From an uncultured Chloroflexota bacterium (GTDB lineage Bacteria; Chloroflexota; Chloroflexia; Chloroflexales; Chloroflexaceae), in NCBI GenBank assembly GCA_937120965.1, contig CAKZKA010000171.1, forward strand, positions 1 to 48,533: DNA of 48,533 bases. The letters run 5' to 3'. Shown one piece after another: positions 18,040-28,376 of the stretch (the first letter of the stretch is position 1; each line of letters starts with the position of its first letter). The notes under the pieces are model-generated. The model did not search any database. It saw only the letters and a list, made by a program, of their open reading frames with translations, and was not told the DNA's origin. Both the position numbers and the translations under genes were made by a program.

Positions 18040-18150
18040 TGACCAGCGGGGAAACCGGGTTTCCCCATCGTCTGCCTATGTGGAGGGTTTGGGAGAGCTG
18101 CGCCCTCCCAGGGCCAAACCTGTTTTCATCCTGTCAGGGTGCGGTACATG
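18040..18150. repeat. Palindromic repeat fragments
   Basis: GGGGAAACCGGGTTTCCCC hairpin (18049-18067) and a GGGAGAGCTGCGCCCTCCCA hairpin with a CCTGTTTTCATC edge (18091-18131), belonging to the common spacer family. Confidence 0.75.
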
Positions 18151-18810: not shown

Positions 18811-19563
18811 ATGGCAGCCTCGATTCGCTCAAGCCGGGTCTGGTTACTGTTCGCCGCGCTGGTCGCCGTCGCCGCCCTGGTGGGGGCATCGGCGCCGTAT
18901 GCTCAGGCAGCGGTGTTGCAAGGCGCGCTCGCTGCGCCTCCCACTGCGCCCGACCCACAATCTGGTTTGACCTGGACGGCCTGGCAGGATCTCGGCGGTA
19001 CGCTAACCTCCGCGCCGGCAGCCGTCTCATGGGGCCGGGAACGCATAACCGTCTTTGCGCGCGGGGGGAACGGTGAGATCATTCAAACCTACAAAGAAGG
19101 CGGTGGAGCCTGGTCACCATGGCGCACGCCGCCTGAACTGCGCGGCGTGATCCTCCGCTCAGCGCCGTCGTGCGCCTCGTGGACGGCGGGGGCCATCAAC
19201 TGCGTTGCCCTGCGCGAGGGTTACGGCGGCGTTTTCCAGTTCTACTGGAACGGGCGCGGCTGGGCCGCGAACGACCTTGGCGGCGACGCGACCTCGGCGC
19301 CGGCAATTGTGGCCTGGGGCGCCGGACGCCTGAGCGTCTTTGTTCGGAATAGCAACGGGAACCTCATCCATCGCTACTGGCAACACGATGTTACCGATTG
19401 GACCCCGCCGCGGTGGGAGGCGGTCGGGAGTGGAACCATCACCTCGGCGCCGGCGTGCGGCTCACGCGAAACCGGGATCATTGACTGCTTCGCCCTTGGC
19501 CCCAACGGTGTAGTCATGCAGCTCTACTACGACGAACGGGTGGGAGCGCGCTGGGTCGGATAG
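18811..19563 (+). CDS. Secreted PLL-like (DUF346) beta-propeller, N-terminal part
   Basis: 250 residues to the first stop. A signal peptide is clear: VWLLFAALVAVAALVGASA followed by PYAQA, with cleavage likely near residue 33. The mature part has repeats of about 45-50 residues with the pattern LGG-T-TSAP-W-R-VFARGGNGEI, the signature of PLL/fucolectin-like DUF346 propellers that bind sugars. Paired cysteines per blade (for example CASW and INCVAL) could form disulfides. The stop TAG at 19561-19563 cuts the protein in mid-domain, and the reading continues in the same frame to 19872. ATG 18811 has GGGAGGG at proper spacing. Confidence 0.75.
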   Translation: MAASIRSSRVWLLFAALVAVAALVGASAPYAQAAVLQGALAAPPTAPDPQSGLTWTAWQDLGGTLTSAPAAVSWGRERITVFARGGNGEIIQTYKEGGGAWSPWRTPPELRGVILRSAPSCASWTAGAINCVALREGYGGVFQFYWNGRGWAANDLGGDATSAPAIVAWGAGRLSVFVRNSNGNLIHRYWQHDVTDWTPPRWEAVGSGTITSAPACGSRETGIIDCFALGPNGVVMQLYYDERVGARWVG

Positions 19564-19903: not shown

Positions 19904-20668
19904 TCAGATATCCGGGGGTGGTTCGGGTTCGCCGATCATGTCGCCGTACCAGCGCTCCAGCCACTCCAGGGCCTCATAGAGCCGTCCGGCGGGCATGCGG
20001 CGATAGGAAGAAATGCCAAAGTTGCGGTACAGCCCGCTGAGGGCGCCCCAGTACTCGTTGCGGCGGGTGCGCTCGCCGAGGGTGTGCACCACCCTGCGCA
20101 CCGTCTGGGCCAGCCGGGCGGCCTGGGGGTCGTCAACGGCTGCGCCGCGGGCGGCCCAGGGATCGGCGCCCGGGCTTTCATCGCCAGCGGGGGCGGTGTC
20201 GAGCTGCCGCTCGATCAGCACCTGCTGGCGAGCCAGGTTCGCGATGGCCATGGCCCCGACATAGGCCTGCTCGGCGTGACCCTGCTGGGGTCGGGGGGCA
20301 ATCAACCCATCGCCGCTGTCGAAGCCCTGGGGGCGGAAGGCCTGCCAGAGCAGCGAGGCTGCTTCGCGCTGGAACAGGGCCAGGCGATCGCGAAGGGCCG
20401 GATCGGGGATATGCTCGGGGTTCAGGGTAGTCAACCAGAGGGGTACCAGTTCGATCCGCAGGCACAGGCGCGTGGGCGCCCCGCCGTCGTGCGGCTCGGC
20501 GGCAAGGCGACGGGCGCCCTGGCGCAACAAGGGGTGCGCCTTTACCCGGCGCTCCTCCCGAGCCGCCGGCAATCCCAGCGCAGCACAGAGGTCGGCCAGG
20601 GCTACCAGGGTGCGGTTCGGGTCCAGCTCCAGACAGGCGACAATATCCCGGGCATAGAACCAGTGCAT
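19904..20668 (-). CDS. P22 antirepressor-like (P22_AR_N) protein
   Basis: 254 residues. Residues 1-115 (MHWFYARDIVACLELDPN to LALFQREAASLLWQAFRP) match the N-terminal domain of phage P22-type antirepressors, including the LDPNR..LADLC segment and the terminal FQREAA. The C-terminal half is helical (YRNFGISSYRRMPAGRLYEALEWLERWYGDM) and unlike common antirepressor tails. ATG 20668 is the family start; the frame upstream runs into a repeat. No other phage genes are nearby, so it is probably a domesticated regulator rather than a prophage. It is convergent with the beta-propeller gene, 31 bases apart. Confidence 0.75.
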   Translation of the reverse strand: MHWFYARDIVACLELDPNRTLVALADLCAALGLPAAREERRVKAHPLLRQGARRLAAEPHDGGAPTRLCLRIELVPLWLTTLNPEHIPDPALRDRLALFQREAASLLWQAFRPQGFDSGDGLIAPRPQQGHAEQAYVGAMAIANLARQQVLIERQLDTAPAGDESPGADPWAARGAAVDDPQAARLAQTVRRVVHTLGERTRRNEYWGALSGLYRNFGISSYRRMPAGRLYEALEWLERWYGDMIGEPEPPPDI

Positions 20669-20699
20669 GGGGTGGCTCCCGCAGGGTGTTGCTCGTGTT

Positions 20700-20815
20700 C
20701 CATCATCTCTGGCGGCTGCGCCGCCCACCAGAAACCAGGGGAAACCAGGTTTCCCCGTCCCCTGCCCGCCGGGGCGGCATGCCCCCGGCGCCGGTCGGAG
20801 GGCAGATAAACCTGA
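20700..20815. repeat. Palindromic repeat fragments
   Basis: GGCGGCTGCGCCGCC hairpin, GGGGAAACCAGGTTTCCCC (20739-20757) and a CCCCTGCCCGCCGGGGCGGCATGCCCCC module. Confidence 0.75.
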
Positions 20816-20849
20816 TCGCTCCACGCTAATCGTAGGGTACTCGCATCGG

Positions 20850-20945
20850 CTCATTTACGCAATCAGATATCATTATCCACAATATGGAGAAAAAATCCAC
20901 ATTTTGGATTTTCGATTACATGATACAATACGGCTATCGGTGTAT
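20850..20945. promoter_or_regulatory. AT-rich islet with DnaA-box-like sites upstream of glcD
   Basis: About 95 bases of markedly AT-rich DNA in a GC-rich window. It has a perfect DnaA box TTATCCACA (20873-20881), a 7-of-9 match AAATCCACA (20893-20901) twenty bases on, and a GATACAAT -10-like sequence (20922-20929). It may be the regulatory region of the glycolate-oxidase genes. Nothing else indicates a replication origin here. Confidence 0.4.
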
Positions 20946-21118: not shown

Positions 21119-22567
21119 ATGAACCGCTCCCAACTCATCGAGGAGTTGCGGCACGTTGTGGGGCCCACCGGAGTAGTTGCCGACCCGGTGGCTCTGATGA
21201 CCTACGATGCCGATGGCTGTGTGATGGATACCGGCGAGCCGCAGGTGGTAGTATTACCCACCAGCGCCGAGCAAGTTAGCGCCGTGGTGCGTCTTGCCGC
21301 GCGCTACGGGGCGCCAATCGTGCCCCGCGGGGCCGGCACCGGTCTTGCCGGTGGGGCAACGCCCATCGGTGGCGGCATCGTGGTCAGCACGGCGCGGATG
21401 GACCGGGTGCTGGAGATCGATGCGCGCAACGGGCGCGTGCTCTGCCAGCCGGGGGTGATCAACTGGGAACTATCGCAACTGCTCAAGCCCTACGGTTACC
21501 AGTTTGCCCCTGATCCTTCGTCGCAAAAGGCCTGCACCGTCGGCGGCAACATTGCCAACAACGCCGGCGGCCCCCACTGTCTGAAGTACGGCATTACCTC
21601 CAGCCACGTACTGGGAGTGCAAATGGTGCTGCCCGACGGCTCGATCATCTGGACGGGGGACGGCAATCCTGCGCCAGTGGGCTACGATCTGACCGGGGTG
21701 ATCACCGGCAGCGAGGGCACCATCGGCCTGGTGACCGCGGCCTGGCTCAGGCTCACGCGGCTGCCCGAGGCGGTGCGGGTCGTCCTGGCCCTGTTCCCCG
21801 ACATTGCCGGCGCCTCGGCCAGTGTTTCGCAGGTGATCGCCAGCGGCTTTTTGCCCGCGGCGCTGGAGATTATGGACCGGCTGGCGATCAAGGCCGTCAA
21901 CGATATGTACAAACTGGGCCTGCCCGAACAGGCCGGCGCGGCGCTGCTGATCGAGGTGGATGGCGTAGACGACGGCCTGGACGAGTTGCTGGCCGACATT
22001 ACCGCTGTTTGCTGGCGCAACGGCGCGATTGATGTGCGACCCGCGCGCACGCCAGCGGAGCAAAATCAGGTCTGGGCGGCGCGGAAGAACGCCTTTGGCG
22101 CGATGGGTCGCCTGGCGCCAACGTACTACCTGGTTGACACAGTGGTACCGCGCACCCGTCTGCCCTACACGATGGAGCAGGTCGGGCGCATCTCGCAGGA
22201 GTACCGTTTGCCGATTGCGAATGTGTTCCACGCCGGCGACGGCAACCTGCACCCGATCATTCTCTTCGACCGGCGTGACCGGAGCCAGAACCAGCGCGCG
22301 CTGGAGGCGGCCACCGGGGTGATGCACGTGAGCATCGAGCAGGGCGGGGTCATCAGCGGCGAGCACGGCATTGGCGTGGAGAAGCAGGACTACATGACCC
22401 TGCTGTTCTCCACCGACGACCTGGCGGCGATGGCCGGGCTGCACCAGAGCTTCGACCCCTACGATCTCTTCAATCCGGGCAAGGTCTTTCCCAAGGGACG
22501 GGGTTGCGGGGAGCTGGCCGCCCTGCGCAAGGCGGGCGTGGCCTGGAGCGAGCTGAAGACGCGGTAG
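21119..22567 (+). CDS. glcD: Glycolate oxidase subunit GlcD (FAD-linked oxidase)
   Basis: 482 residues, the usual GlcD length. The FAD domain has [18 protein letters not shown] (FAD pyrophosphate loop) and [21 protein letters not shown]. The C-terminal cap carries [16 protein letters not shown] and [22 protein letters not shown], conserved in glycolate/D-lactate dehydrogenases. It oxidises glycolate to glyoxylate, passing electrons through GlcE and GlcF. Start ATG 21119 has GAGGA at 21107-21111, immediately after a repeat edge. glcE starts eight bases after its stop. Confidence 0.93.
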
Positions 22568-22575
22568 GTGCATCT

Positions 22576-23856
22576 ATGCTTCCAGCAGCGCTGACGCGCC
22601 AGTTGGTCGAGATTGTCGGCCCCGAGCGCATCTCTGAAGAAACGGCGCCGTTCGCCGTGCACGGTCGCTCCCCGGCGCTGGTGATCAGTCCCTCCTCGGT
22701 GGAGCAGGTGGCCCGCGCTGTCGCGGCCTGCCACGCCGCGCGCGTTCCGCTGGCGCCGTGGGGCGGCGGCACGCGTCAGCGGTGGGGCCGGCCTATCGCT
22801 GCGGAAACCTTTGTCGTCCTCCGCACGAGCGGGTTGCAGGCCATTCTTATGCATGAGCCTGACGATCTTACGATCTCGGTCGAGGCGGGGATGACCTTCG
22901 CGGCCCTGGATGCAGCCCTCGCCGCGCACAACCAGATGTTGCCCCTGGACCCGCCGCGGCCGGCCCTGAGCACCATCGGCGGCCTCCTGGCCTCCGGCGC
23001 AGATGGCCCGCGGCGCCTGGCCTACGGCACCAGTCGCGATCTGCTGATCGGCATCCGGGTAGTGGAAGCGACGGGCCGGATCAGTAAGGCCGGCGGTATG
23101 GTGGTGAAGAACGTCAGCGGCTTTGATATGATGAAGCTCTACCTGGGCAGCCTGGGCACGCTGGCGATCATCGTCTCGGCCAACTTCAAGCTGATGCCCC
23201 GGCCGCGGGCTGCGGCGAGCCTGAGCTGTTTCTTTGAGCAACCTGAGCGGGCCTTCAGGCTGATCACCGCCTTGAGCGCAAGCCAGCTCATCCCGGCCGC
23301 AGTGGAGTACCGTGAGGACGGGACCACGGCGAGCATCGAGGTGCGTATCGAGGGGTTGCCCGCCGCTGTCGAACGCCATGTGCGCGATGTGCGCCGCCTG
23401 GCTGAAGAGGCCGGCGCTGGCAGCGTTTCTGTCGTCGCCGAAGGTCTGGCCGCGGTAGAGGAACGCTGGGCAGACTTCAATGACGCGCCGCAGACGGTCG
23501 ATCTGGCCGCCGATGAACTGGTGGCACGGCTGAGTTGCCTCCCCGGCGCCCTGGAAGCGGCCCTGGGCGACGTGCGAGCCCGGGCCGCGCGGGAAGGGTT
23601 GCTGCTGCGCGTCCAGGCCCGCGCCCTCAGCGGGGTGGCCTACCTGCGCCTGCGGGGCAGCGACGAGCATCTGCGCGCCTGGCACGCAGCTATACTGGCG
23701 CGCTGGCCGCAACTCGTGGTTATTGGCGCACAGCCTGCTCTCGCTGCCGAATTGCCGGTCTGGGGCGCAGGCATTGCCAATCTGGATCTGATGCGGCGGA
23801 TCAAGCAGGAGTTTGATCCAGAGAATCTGCTGAACCCGGGGCGGTATGTGGTGTAG
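22576..23856 (+). CDS. glcE: Glycolate oxidase subunit GlcE (FAD-binding)
   Basis: 426 residues. FAD_binding_4 features are LAPWGGGTRQRWGRP (about 56-70), PPRPALSTIGGLLASGADGPRRL and GGMVVKNVSGFDMMKLYLGSLGTL. It ends with the family tail MRRIKQEFDPENLLNPGRYVV. GlcE pairs with GlcD in the glycolate-oxidase complex. ATG 22576 is nine bases from the glcD stop, so the two are probably co-translated. Confidence 0.9.
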   Translation: MLPAALTRQLVEIVGPERISEETAPFAVHGRSPALVISPSSVEQVARAVAACHAARVPLAPWGGGTRQRWGRPIAAETFVVLRTSGLQAILMHEPDDLTISVEAGMTFAALDAALAAHNQMLPLDPPRPALSTIGGLLASGADGPRRLAYGTSRDLLIGIRVVEATGRISKAGGMVVKNVSGFDMMKLYLGSLGTLAIIVSANFKLMPRPRAAASLSCFFEQPERAFRLITALSASQLIPAAVEYREDGTTASIEVRIEGLPAAVERHVRDVRRLAEEAGAGSVSVVAEGLAAVEERWADFNDAPQTVDLAADELVARLSCLPGALEAALGDVRARAAREGLLLRVQARALSGVAYLRLRGSDEHLRAWHAAILARWPQLVVIGAQPALAAELPVWGAGIANLDLMRRIKQEFDPENLLNPGRYVV

Positions 23857-23909
23857 ATTGTGAAACAAGGTGACCGTCCCCGCCTCGCTGCGGGCGGGAG
23901 CCCGACTCC

Positions 23910-24030
23910 TCCCTCTGAGGTGATCATATGGGGAAACCGGGTTTCCCCATACCCCTGCCTGTGGGGGCGGCAAGCCCTCCCAAGAACGCATATTTTCATT
24001 CCGGCGTTGTGCGGCGCAACCGCATGCGTC
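23910..24030. repeat. Palindromic repeat between glcE and the glcD-glcE fusion
   Basis: Edge TGAGGTGATCATATG, hairpin GGGGAAACCGGGTTTCCCC (23931-23949), and edge CATATTTTCATTCCGGCGTTGTGCGGCGCAACCGCATG. It lies within an apparent operon. Confidence 0.8.
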
Positions 24031-24099
24031 TAACGGGTTCAGGGGCAGGAGGCTCACGCGCCGCACCGGCCTGGTTGAGAAGGTGGAGACGCGCCAGCG

Positions 24100-26955
24100 A
24101 TGTTGCACTCAACCCTGGTTGCCGAACTGATCCGCGTCGTCGGAGCGCACGCGGTGGTGCGTGACCCCGACGCCCTGCGCACCTACGACGCTGACGCGAG
24201 TATGATCGTCGCCCGTGCGCCGGATGTAGCGGTGGCGCCCGGCACGCCCGAGGAGGCCGCCGCGGCAGTACGGCTGGCCGTCAGCGCCGGGTTGCCTGTT
24301 GTCGCCCGTGGCGCCGGCACAGGCGTCGCGGGGGGCGCCATTCCCCTGCGCGGGGGCGTGCTCCTGAGCACGGCGCGCATGGAACGCATCGAGGCGGTTG
24401 AGCCGCGCTCGCGCCGCGCCCTGGTGGGCGCCGGGGTGGTCAATGCCGAGTTAAACGCCCGCCTGGCGCCCCTGGGGTTGCAATTCGCCCCCGATCCCTC
24501 CTCGCAGAAGGCCAGCACCATCGGCGGTAACCTGGCCACCAATGCCGGCGGCCCCCATTGCCTGAAGTACGGCGTGACGACCAACCACGTCCTGGCGCTA
24601 GAACTGGTGCGCCCCGATGGAACGTTGCTGTGGACCGGCGATGGAACGCCCGATGCCGCTGGCTACGACCTGACCGGCGTAGTGGTGGGGAGCGAAGGGA
24701 CCTTCGGGGTAATCACGCGGGCACTGGTGCGCCTCACGCCGCTGCCCGAGGCCAACCGGGTAGTGCTGGCGCTCTTCCCCAACGTGATCGCCGCTTCGAC
24801 CGCAGTGAGCCAGATCATCGCCGCCGGGTCTCTGCCCACGTCGCTGGAGGTGATGGACCACAACGGTATTCGCGCGGTCAACCGGGCCTATGGGCTGGGC
24901 CTGCCCGAGGCCGGGGGCACAACCCTGCTGATTATCGAAGTGGACGGCGTCGCCGAGGGATTGGACGAGACCCTCGAAGAGATCCTGGAGCTGTGTCGGG
25001 CGCAGGGCGCCTTCGAGCTGCGTCCGGCGCGCACCCCCGCTGAGCAGGCACGCGTCTGGGCGGCGCGCAAGGCGGTAGCCGGGGCAATCGGGCGGCTGGC
25101 GCCGGCTTACCTGCTGGTAGATACAGTGGTGCCCCGTACGCGCCTGCCGCTGATGATGGAGCAGATCGAGCGCCTGCGGCGCGAGTGGGGTATGGAGGTC
25201 TGCAACGTCTTCCATGCCGGCGATGGCAATCTGCACCCTATGGTGCTCTACGACCCCCGCGACCCGGATCAGCGCGAGCGTGCCCACGCCCTCGCCGGGG
25301 CCGTGCTCAAGCTGAGCATCGAGCAGGGCGGGGTGATCAGCGGCGAGCACGGCATCGGCGTGGAGAAGCAGGAGTATCTGCCGCTGCTGCTCGATCCGCA
25401 CGAGCTGCAACTCCACGCCGCCGTGTACACCTGTTTCAACCCGGAGGATTGCTTCAACCCCGGCAAGATCTTCCCGGTGGCCCTGCGCCCGCACGACCTG
25501 GCCGCGCAGCGCCGGGCGCGCATCGGCAGCACGGCCGGACACGGGCCGGTGCTGGCGCATCTGTCGCCGTCCGCTTCCGGGTCAGTGCGCAACGGAGGGC
25601 GTATGGACCAAAGCGCAGGCCCGGAAACTGGCGACCGGCCGGGGGCCCCGGAGACCGGCGCGAACGGCGTTGACGCTGCGGCGCTGGCAGCGATCGTTGG
25701 AGCCGGACACGTGACCGCCAACGGCGCCACTCTCGCCATCAGCCCCGGTAGCGTCGAGGAACTCGCGCAGGTGGTGGCCTTCTGCCACCGCGCAGGCATA
25801 GCTGTGCGACCGTGCAGCGACATATCGCATGGCGACAACGCGTTCTCCGCGGCACGCCCGCTCCACATCGTCACCCGACGCCTGAACCGGGTACTGGCCT
25901 ACGAACCCGACGACCAGACAATCGGCGTGGAGGCGGGGATGAGTCTGGCGGAGCTTCAGGCGCTCCTGGCTGCCAACGGCCAGATGCTGCCCCTTGACCT
26001 GCACCGGCCCGAGGCAGCCACCCTGGGCGCGCTGGTCGCCACGGGCGCCGACGGGCCGCGCCGCCCGGGCTACGGCATCCTGCGCGACTGGGTGCTGGGC
26101 CTGACCATTGTCGAGGCCGATGGCGCCGTGTCGCGCCTGGGGGCGCAGGTGGTCAAGAATGTGAGCGGCTTCGACCTGGTCAAGCTGCTGGTGGGCAGCC
26201 ACGGCACGCTAGGAGTGATCGCGGCGGTGCGCCTGCGGGTCTTTCCGCGGCCACGCGCCACCGCCACGCTGACTGCCGCCTTCGACCGGCGCGAGCAGGC
26301 CCTGGCCTGCCTGGACGCAGTGGCGAACACGCGGCTACAGCCTACTGCCGCCGAACTGGTCGCCGGGCCGCTGGAGCGAAGGTTGCCGCTGGAATTTCCG
26401 CCTGGCGGAGCGCTGCTGGCCTTGCGGGCCGAGGGCCACCCGGCAGCGGTGGCGCAGCATATGCGCGCCTTGCGCGGCCTGGCCGCCGGAGCCGGCGCCC
26501 TGAGCGTGGAGGAACTGAGCGAAAGCGGCGAAAGCGCCCTGTGGGTAGAGCTAGCGCGCCGGGCCGCGCCCCCGGAGGAGCCTGGCGCGAGCCTGGTGCG
26601 CCTGTGCGCAGCGCCGGCGGATCTGGGGGCAGCCCTTGAGACGGCGAGCACCGAGGCGCTGTCGCGCCGGCTGACCCTCGGCCTCTGCGCCCGCGGCCTG
26701 AGCGGCGTAGCCTACCTCCAGGTCGAAGGGCCGGAGGAGCAGCGCCTCGACTTCCACGCGGCCCTGGTACAGCGCCTGCGCCACGCCCATCTGCTCGACC
26801 CCTCCCTGGCCAGGCGCGCGGCGCACCCCTGGGGCGCGCCGCCGCCCGCCCTGGCGCTGATGCGCGCCCTCAAAACTGAATTTGACCCCTTCGACCGCAT
26901 GAACCCTGGCGCACTGTTCTGGCGGGATGAAACGCCCGCGCCCTTGTCAGCCTGA
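24100..26955 (+). CDS. glcDE: GlcD-GlcE fusion protein
   Basis: 951 residues holding two complete FAD-dependent subunits. Residues 1 to about 475 are a second GlcD ([68 protein letters not shown]). Residues about 520-951 are a second GlcE (LHRPEAATLGALVATGADGPRR, QVVKNVSGFDLVKLLVGSHGTLG, MRALKTEFDPFDRMNPG). A low-complexity linker lies between. An internal in-frame ATG at 25603 (residue 502) is preceded by GGAGGG at 25594-25599, like a retained start of a once separate glcE. Start ATG 24100 has AAGGTGGAG upstream. Whether it replaces or complements the separate subunits is unknown. Confidence 0.9.
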   Translation: MLHSTLVAELIRVVGAHAVVRDPDALRTYDADASMIVARAPDVAVAPGTPEEAAAAVRLAVSAGLPVVARGAGTGVAGGAIPLRGGVLLSTARMERIEAVEPRSRRALVGAGVVNAELNARLAPLGLQFAPDPSSQKASTIGGNLATNAGGPHCLKYGVTTNHVLALELVRPDGTLLWTGDGTPDAAGYDLTGVVVGSEGTFGVITRALVRLTPLPEANRVVLALFPNVIAASTAVSQIIAAGSLPTSLEVMDHNGIRAVNRAYGLGLPEAGGTTLLIIEVDGVAEGLDETLEEILELCRAQGAFELRPARTPAEQARVWAARKAVAGAIGRLAPAYLLVDTVVPRTRLPLMMEQIERLRREWGMEVCNVFHAGDGNLHPMVLYDPRDPDQRERAHALAGAVLKLSIEQGGVISGEHGIGVEKQEYLPLLLDPHELQLHAAVYTCFNPEDCFNPGKIFPVALRPHDLAAQRRARIGSTAGHGPVLAHLSPSASGSVRNGGRMDQSAGPETGDRPGAPETGANGVDAAALAAIVGAGHVTANGATLAISPGSVEELAQVVAFCHRAGIAVRPCSDISHGDNAFSAARPLHIVTRRLNRVLAYEPDDQTIGVEAGMSLAELQALLAANGQMLPLDLHRPEAATLGALVATGADGPRRPGYGILRDWVLGLTIVEADGAVSRLGAQVVKNVSGFDLVKLLVGSHGTLGVIAAVRLRVFPRPRATATLTAAFDRREQALACLDAVANTRLQPTAAELVAGPLERRLPLEFPPGGALLALRAEGHPAAVAQHMRALRGLAAGAGALSVEELSESGESALWVELARRAAPPEEPGASLVRLCAAPADLGAALETASTEALSRRLTLGLCARGLSGVAYLQVEGPEEQRLDFHAALVQRLRHAHLLDPSLARRAAHPWGAPPPALALMRALKTEFDPFDRMNPGALFWRDETPAPLSA
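25594..25605 (+). promoter_or_regulatory. Internal ribosome-binding site and start codon inside glcDE
   Basis: GGAGGG (25594-25599), three bases, then ATG (25603), in frame with the fusion and at the GlcD/GlcE boundary. It could give a free GlcE-type product of 450 residues. Confidence 0.5.
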
Positions 26956-26996
26956 ACTACCGGTGGGGAAACGCCCGCCCTGGATGGAGAGCTGGT

Positions 26997-28376
26997 ATGA
27001 CCCTGACCACCCCTGATCGCGAGACGGTGAACATCCCTCTGGTGCCCTTCAGCGCCCGGGATCGTCCCAGTTCCGACATTATCAACACCTGCGTCCACTG
27101 CGGCCTGTGCCTTTCCTCATGCCCAACCTACCGCGAAACGGGGTTGGAGATGTCCTCGCCGCGCGGGCGAATCTACCTGATGAAAGCAGTGGACGAAGGA
27201 CGCATCGGCCTGGAGAGCGAAGTCTTTCAGGAGCAGATGAGCCAGTGCCTCAACTGCCGCGCCTGCGAAGCAGTCTGTCCCTCAGGAGTGCAGTACGGCG
27301 CGATCCTGGAGGCAAGCCGGGCGCAGATCGAGCAGGCGCGGGAGCGGGGGGCGCACGACCCCACGGCGCCAGCGACGCTGCCTCCGCGCCCATTGTGGCA
27401 ACGGGCGCTGCGCGGGGTGGTCTTTGGCGCCCTGTTCAAAGAGATGGGCCTGTTCCGAGCCTTCTCGGCTACAATGCGGCTCTACCAGCGCAGCGGAGCG
27501 CAGTGGATCGCCCGCAAGAGCGGCCTGCTGAGCTTGATCGGCATGGCCGATGCCGAACGGATGCTGCCGCCGATCAACCCACACTTCACCGTGCCCAGGG
27601 GGCAGATCTACCCCGCCGAGGGCGAACGCCGTTACAGTGTGGCCGTCCTCACCGGCTGCATCATGAGCACCGCCTTTGCCGGCGTTCACGAAGCCACCAT
27701 TCGCGTGCTGCAGAAAAACGGCTGCGAAGTGATCCTGCCCCCCGATCAGGGCTGTTGCGGGGCATTGCACACCCACGGCGGCGACCTCGACGGAGGCCGT
27801 GAACTGGCCCGGCGCAACATCGCCGCCTTTGAAGGGCTGGGGGTGGACGCGATCGTGATCAACGCCGCCGGTTGCGGCAGCACGCTCAAAGAGTACAGCC
27901 ACCTGCTTCACGACGATCCGCTCTGGCACGAGCGTGCAGCGGCCTTCAGCCGCAAGGTGAAAGACGTACACGAATTCCTGGCCGGCATCGAGTTCAACCG
28001 CGCCGACCTGGGCCGCCTCGAGGTGCAGGTGACTTACCAGGAACCATGTCACCTGGCCCACGCCCAGCGCATCACCGTCCAGCCGCGGACCCTGCTGATG
28101 GCCATTCCAGGGTTGCAGTTGCGCGAAATGCACGAGAGCGCCCTCTGCTGCGGATCGGCGGGCGTCTACAACCTGACCCAGCCCGAGATGGCCGCTCGGC
28201 TCGGCGCGCGCAAGGTGGACAACGCCCTGGCTACCGGCGCGCAGGTCATCGCCACGGCCAATCCCGGCTGCGCCCTGCAACTGGCGGGCGAACTGCGGCG
28301 GCGCAGCGAGGAGGTGCAGGTGCGCTACATCGTCGAGTTGCTCGATGAGAGTTACCGGCGTGGCGGGAGGGGCTGA
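26997..28376 (+). CDS. glcF: Glycolate oxidase iron-sulfur subunit GlcF
   Basis: 459 residues. Two [4Fe-4S] motifs are visible: Cys32/35/38/42 in CVHCGLCLSSCP and Cys84/87/90/94 in CLNCRACEAVCP. Two CCG-type cysteine-rich domains follow (DQGCCGALHTHGGD; ESALCCGSAGVYNL, with EPCHLAHAQR between). It would carry electrons from the flavin subunits toward the quinone pool. Start ATG 26997 follows GGAGAG, 41 bases after the fusion gene. The stop TGA (28374-28376) is the first part of the repeat edge TGAGGTGAATATAG. Confidence 0.92.
   Translation: MTLTTPDRETVNIPLVPFSARDRPSSDIINTCVHCGLCLSSCPTYRETGLEMSSPRGRIYLMKAVDEGRIGLESEVFQEQMSQCLNCRACEAVCPSGVQYGAILEASRAQIEQARERGAHDPTAPATLPPRPLWQRALRGVVFGALFKEMGLFRAFSATMRLYQRSGAQWIARKSGLLSLIGMADAERMLPPINPHFTVPRGQIYPAEGERRYSVAVLTGCIMSTAFAGVHEATIRVLQKNGCEVILPPDQGCCGALHTHGGDLDGGRELARRNIAAFEGLGVDAIVINAAGCGSTLKEYSHLLHDDPLWHERAAAFSRKVKDVHEFLAGIEFNRADLGRLEVQVTYQEPCHLAHAQRITVQPRTLLMAIPGLQLREMHESALCCGSAGVYNLTQPEMAARLGARKVDNALATGAQVIATANPGCALQLAGELRRRSEEVQVRYIVELLDESYRRGGRG

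Follow-up and report, generated by a model that had tools for sequence, protein, structure and literature searches.

Glycolate oxidase of the Escherichia coli type, GlcDEF, oxidizes its hydroxyacid at the flavin adenine dinucleotide (FAD) of GlcD, and the electrons exit via GlcE and GlcF to quinone. In this protein family a PxGGGT loop holds the FAD pyrophosphate; the role of GlcE within the enzyme is poorly defined. Here, we describe a GlcDEF-type cluster in a 48,533-nucleotide stretch of DNA from an uncultured member of the Chloroflexaceae (contig CAKZKA010000171.1 of assembly GCA_937120965.1; the whole stretch is referred to as the window). In this cluster, separate glcD and glcE genes (glcD1, glcE1) are followed by a second glcD-glcE pair fused into one open reading frame (ORF) and by a single glcF. 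The E half of the fusion has lost the flavin loop and is otherwise conserved.

The closest described counterparts are those of Chloroflexus. In the available parts of Tang et al. (PMC3150298), Caur_2133, Caur_2134 and Caur_2135 of C. aurantiacus are given as an FAD-dependent oxidase (actK), a D-lactate dehydrogenase (actL) and a Cys-rich Fe-S protein (actM), located upstream of the genes for ActB, E, A, G, SCO1 and cytochrome oxidase; the glcDEF list in the same parts includes Caur_2133 and Caur_2135 and omits Caur_2134. For C. aggregans, the accessible portions of a metatranscriptome study (PMC8004040) report midday peaks for glcDEF, including Cagg_1528 and Cagg_1530-1531; judged by gene order, the omitted Cagg_1529 would be the fusion. 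The C. aurantiacus sequence carries D1, E1, a fusion and F, followed by an ActB/SCO1/COX-type set, and the four-gene order of Caur_2132-2135 (actK/L/M of the proposed Cr alternative complex III (ACIII) operon) is the same as that in the window. Because of this common order we equate actL with the fusion, with genes mapped to locus tags by order and description. The sections of PMC3150298 on actK/L/M mention neither a D-E fusion nor a lost loop, and a search of the published literature for a described D-E fusion found none, the excerpts of these two papers being the only relevant ones. Hence, sequences of the Chloroflexus counterparts have already been published; the literature searched was not found to describe that D and E are fused, how old this fusion is, or that its E half has lost the loop. 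As far as these excerpts go, the fusion would also correct the record for a Chloroflexus gene that is labeled 'D-lactate dehydrogenase' and, by gene order, absent from both published glcDEF lists.

A first-pass annotation of the window had proposed the gene order glcD1-glcE1-glcDE-glcF, with glcDE in two copies, the latter fused into an uninterrupted frame, and one adjoining glcF. Coordinates, ORFs and Pfam matches agree with all of this (Table 1). D1 carries FAD_binding_4 and FAD-oxidase_C, E1 FAD_binding_4, GlcF a 4Fe-4S and two CCG stretches, and the fusion FAD_binding_4 and FAD-oxidase_C followed by a second FAD_binding_4 stretch; D1 and D2 are 58% identical. Our survey took in 41 genomes of the family from 18 genera, and the clusters were read in most of those with strong matches. 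Window-type D-E fusions without interruption numbered 27 ORFs in 23 genomes, four of which hold a second copy, and the carriers include three closed, single-contig Chloroflexus genomes (genus code g9; G044, G045, G047). Two further fusion rows outside the 27 are truncated by the contig end (L057, G006) or frameshifted (L055, G009). A frameshift or assembly artefact was rejected as the origin of the fused frame, given that unbroken ORFs of this kind are present in 23 genomes. The plasmid collection yielded 967 matching records; in none of them did a single stretch span 80% of the fusion.

Maximum-likelihood trees were built from 51 of 52 D rows and 51 of 56 E rows. The fused D halves fall together in a single clade (19 rows; support 100/100), as do the fused E halves (100/96), whose clade also holds the partial row L044, not labeled as fused. 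For D and E alike, the sister clade consists of separate genes together with family f4. The alignments total 81 E and 77 D rows. When the E tree was repeated with 60 rows, excluding 21 (family f2, the type-2 fusions described below, other GlcE-like rows, fragments and frameshifted pieces), 29 fusion rows again formed one clade (99/98). The phylogeny of both halves, which the first-pass annotation had put forward as a check, places them among GlcD and GlcE rather than in unrelated families. The nearest relatives differ in the length of the linker between the halves. This linker is fast-evolving, with a ratio of non-synonymous to synonymous substitution rates (dN/dS) of 0.38 between the window and its congener G002. 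These trees indicate that the fusion is old and that D and E were joined into one ORF once in the ancestry of the family.

The first-pass annotation had further stated that the fusion keeps all motifs of both parts. This holds for the D half, whose metal-binding and FAD motifs are intact and which keeps 169 of the 175 columns invariant in 30 separate D rows; FAD_binding_4, FAD-oxidase_C and the conserved catalytic motifs are present in D1 and D2, and both look catalytic from their sequences. It does not hold for the GlcE half: the loop PWGGGT of GlcE1 (PWGGGTRQRWG) reads PCSDIS in the fusion (PCSDISHGDNAF). Across the 60-row E tree, the loop is kept in all 31 separate E rows (GGGT or GGGS, with one GAGT) and lost in 18 of the 29 fusion rows; among the rows dropped from that tree, L057 has lost it, L120 keeps it, and L044/L103, one partial row, is unreadable there. 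Outside the loop, E2 of the window retains 68 of 89 E1-conserved positions, compared to 1 of 7 inside it. We compared retention over 30 E1, 10 loop-intact E2 and 18 loop-lost E2 rows, and over 30 separate and 29 fused D rows. The 18 loop-lost rows showed a mean retention of 0.90 over the 65 outside positions kept by loop-intact fusions, versus 0.41 in the loop. A low run at positions 220-232 is changed in loop-intact fusions too and is thus a difference between E1 and E2, while the second G of a later GG pair is kept in 4 of the 18 loop-lost rows and the R of NPGR in none of the 18. Between the window and G002, dN/dS is 0.05 for D1, 0.115 for E1, 0.10 for D2, 0.29 for E2 and 0.07 for F; selection on E2 is relaxed yet still constrained, with purifying selection weaker but clear. 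From its residues, E2 most probably does not bind FAD in the usual manner. A GlcE lacking the loop is not without parallel: in the solved GlcE chain 2yvs (219 aa), the aligned part lies entirely downstream of the loop.

As in GlcDEF of the E. coli type, homologs of GlcD, GlcE and GlcF are clustered here, the GlcD metal and FAD motifs are present, and GlcF has two 4Fe-4S motifs and two CCG domains. The FAD loop expected of GlcE is intact in GlcE1 and lost from the E half of the fusion. The window differs in that the second D-E pair is one ORF, its E half is loop-less, and the subunits score below the equivalog cut-offs. Among named models, those of NCBIfam for GlcD, GlcE and GlcF match best, with 445.6 (D1) and 533.2 (fusion) against a cut-off of 567.9 for GlcD, 168.3 (glcE1) and 194.2 (fusion) against 284 for GlcE, and 298.8 against 333 for GlcF. 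Because all subunits miss the equivalog cut-offs, the locus is classed as GlcDEF-type, and glycolate is a likely rather than a demonstrated substrate. The nearest solved relatives of the D half, in sequence and fold, are D-lactate dehydrogenases (LDHD, the Porcellio structures 9qgz/9qit and LctD of Ldh-EtfAB), whose chains of 464-471 aa lack a fused GlcE half; a fold search with the fusion model likewise returned D-lactate dehydrogenases over about 460 columns.

How the two D-E modules are paired in other genomes bears on their partnership. The loop is lost in 15 of 17 fusions directly following glcE1, versus 1 of 10 fusions not following it; two rows at contig ends (G001, G004), both loop-lost, stand outside this count. 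D1-E1-F occurs alone in G054, G055 and G011, and fusion-F alone in G018, G051 and G013, all three of which keep the loop; therefore, neither module strictly needs the other. Candidatus Viridilinea mediisalina (G015, locus L039) has E1 and the fusion, with D1 reduced to a remnant of about 46-62 codons inside the contig, which is the best D1 match besides the fusion and a 39%-identical paralog. The remnant is C-terminal, located around 5248-5385 of L130 (G015:C297), beside short repeats. Nor was D1 detected in G056, from the same genus, but the contig there stops just past E1. If the assemblies are right, this pattern favors E1 working with the fusion (D2) in Ca. Viridilinea. In Oscillochloris sp. 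ZM17-4, glcE1 (L043/L095) is divided between two frames that overlap, either through a frameshift or as a pseudogene.

Taken together, we consider it probable, if far from settled, that the product of the cluster is an alpha-hydroxyacid:quinone oxidoreductase of the GlcDEF type, acting on glycolate or D-lactate, which has two D-E modules, the second old and fused with a flavin-free, structural E2, and a single GlcF. The D2 half would be a competent catalytic flavoprotein, and the E2 half a structural or docking partner tethered to it, most likely without normally bound FAD. Most likely, the flavin of GlcE is provided by the separate GlcE1, and electrons would pass to the Fe-S subunit GlcF and on to the quinone pool. 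In the most likely working unit, a single GlcF would carry one D-E module or two, E1 would bear the flavin and E2 would serve as the structural arm of D2. A natural D-E fusion with a loop-less yet conserved E half offers a direct route to asking whether GlcE needs FAD or is structural.

Several observations weigh against this reading. Besides the scores below the equivalog cut-offs, the group-wise retention contrast is partly circular, as the loop-lost group is defined by the loop, and the higher dN/dS of E2 also fits slow decay. E2 may bind FAD without the loop; a structure model of the fusion built from 9 sequences (mean predicted local distance difference test score 66.6, predicted template modeling score 0.65) is of too low confidence for an assessment of this site. 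Shared ancestry may account for the association of loop loss with glcE1: its raw counts are strong, but the tree offers only two independent pairs for this contrast, and because neither bears on it, the association is a lead rather than a test. In addition, the fusion of G005 (L061) keeps the loop beside E1, that of G009 (L055) keeps it though its E2 is frameshifted, and the contig-truncated L057, outside the counts, has lost it. The absence of D1 in G015 comes from one draft assembly only.

The best surviving alternative, which we judge unlikely but worth weighing, posits two separate enzymes, D1-E1-F and D2E2-F, as alternative complexes (perhaps for glycolate versus D-lactate) that share GlcF, with E2 doing the job of GlcE without the normal loop. 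The genomes that have only D1-E1-F or only fusion-F are in line with this, as are the mere 58% identity of D1 and D2 and the D-lactate dehydrogenase label given to Caur_2134 in the available parts of PMC3150298, which the nearest solved folds match. However, the fusion-only genomes keep the loop, most fusions following E1 have lost it, and G015 has retained E1 without D1.

That E2 is a decaying passenger, with D2 the sole part that matters and the E half being lost, appears improbable. Within the genus, dN/dS of E2 is about 0.23-0.40 versus about 0.12 for E1, and E2 has a frameshift in L055 and an altered C terminus in L056; yet dN/dS of E2 stays well under 1, the ORF is open in 23 genomes, and the positions outside the loop are largely kept in the window as in the 18 loop-lost rows. 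Recent loss of a stop codon, joining the halves of a new duplicate while a second protein still starts at Met502, was the proposal of the first-pass annotation and is very improbable: although GGAGGG and the in-frame ATG are present as claimed, they are spaced by only 3 nt and are missing in the nearest relatives, and the proposal is unsupported because the fusion, common to many genera, forms a single old clade for each half and its variable, fast-evolving linker lacks GGAGGG-ATG in L045, L046 and L054. A Met502 start as a shared relic was rejected on the same absence in the nearest relatives. In the linker region of L045 and L046 no in-frame start with a Shine-Dalgarno-like site was found; L054 offers just a TTG, located further down.

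Returning to the oxidoreductase with a flavin-free E2, its setting in Chloroflexus allows a wider picture. There, the ActB-E-A-G, SCO1 and COX genes come after GlcF, and ActB directly follows GlcF in 15 genomes of the family; in the window, htpG takes this place, as it does in three congeners (G002-G004), so that the ACIII linkage is gone in the genus of the window. A single ancestral locus is supported by the upstream Rsm22-type gene, which the window shares with Chloroflexus. In the window genome, the ActB-E-A-G-SCO-COX set lies on another contig (G000:C259). Altogether this genome has two ACIII sets, L126 (G000:C259) and L127 (G000:C221), one of them with SCO1 and COX genes. As a doubtful extension, the cluster might encode a mixed alpha-hydroxyacid oxidase in which the catalytic subunit is covalently tied to a flavin-free 'pseudo-GlcE', with GlcE1 as flavin relay and one GlcF as the outlet, from an ancestral block with ACIII and cytochrome oxidase. 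If true, substrate oxidation and oxygen reduction might share one respiratory assembly.

Table 1 Features of the glc cluster in the window.
Feature	Position	Strand	Description	Remarks
glcD1	21119..22567	+	separate GlcD-type FAD/metal alpha-hydroxyacid dehydrogenase subunit, 482 aa	PF01565 and PF02913; TIGR00387 445.6 bits
glcE1	22576..23856	+	separate GlcE-type flavin subunit, 426 aa from ATG 22576	PF01565
FAD-phosphate loop of glcE1	22756..22788	+	intact, PWGGGTRQRWG	
Spacer glcE1/fusion	23857..24099	+	243 nt, containing GGGGAAACCGGGTTTCCCC palindrome at 23930-23948	
glcD2-glcE2 fusion ORF	24100..26955	+	951 aa, no internal stop	by position and order, orthologue of Chloroflexus aurantiacus Caur_2134/actL
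GlcD2 half	24100..25530 (end approximate)	+		SGEHGIG kept; 169/175 GlcD1-invariant columns kept
Linker	25531..25734 (boundaries approximate)	+	variable, with private GGAGGG 25594-25599 and ATG 25603-25605	
GlcE2 half	25735..26952 (start approximate)	+	GlcE-like domain, FAD loop lost	
Site of lost PxGGGT loop	25810..25845	+	residues 571-582, PCSDISHGDNAF	
glcF	26997..28376	+	459 aa	two 4Fe-4S motifs and two CCG domains

For glcE1, the ATG was used as start; the ORF list offers a TTG further upstream, at 22504. The glcE1 and fusion genes abut or overlap in G002, G003 and G045, compared to the 243-nt spacer in the window. The palindrome GGGGAAACCnGGTTTCCCC occurs in intergenic spacers at window positions 18048, 18471, 20738, 21073, 23930 and 31084, and at 1993 sites of the 5.18-Mb genome (at most one mismatch; control 0). 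One copy lies within the glcE1/fusion spacer, and G002 and G003 are without any spacer there. Between the Rsm22-type gene and glcD1 are genes for a DUF346-repeat protein (18811-19563) and a P22_AR_N-domain protein (19904-20854); both also adjoin the cluster in relatives, the latter being the more widespread.

Chloroflexales harbor a second GlcD-GlcE fusion clade (type 2; L074-L079) of six fusions of about 870-907 aa in two families. These lie on a long separate branch in both trees with 44-46% identity in D, and their placement indicates that this fusion is independent of the window-type event. At the FAD loop, three of the six have GGGT, one has GGGS and two have lost it. A contig titled Candidatus Gracilibacteria (the L044/L103 pair) shares a partial E2 and GlcF with G020 of the Chloroflexales family, of 577 and 460 aa in both, on contigs that each have a length of 8819, and the title of the record looks wrong. 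Lastly, another contig of the window genome (G000:C306; L083, 3665-6061) encodes a 798-aa protein that is GlcD-like over residues 340-797 and has two FAD_binding_4 stretches, perhaps an E-D fusion in reverse order; long frames similar to it are also found in relatives.

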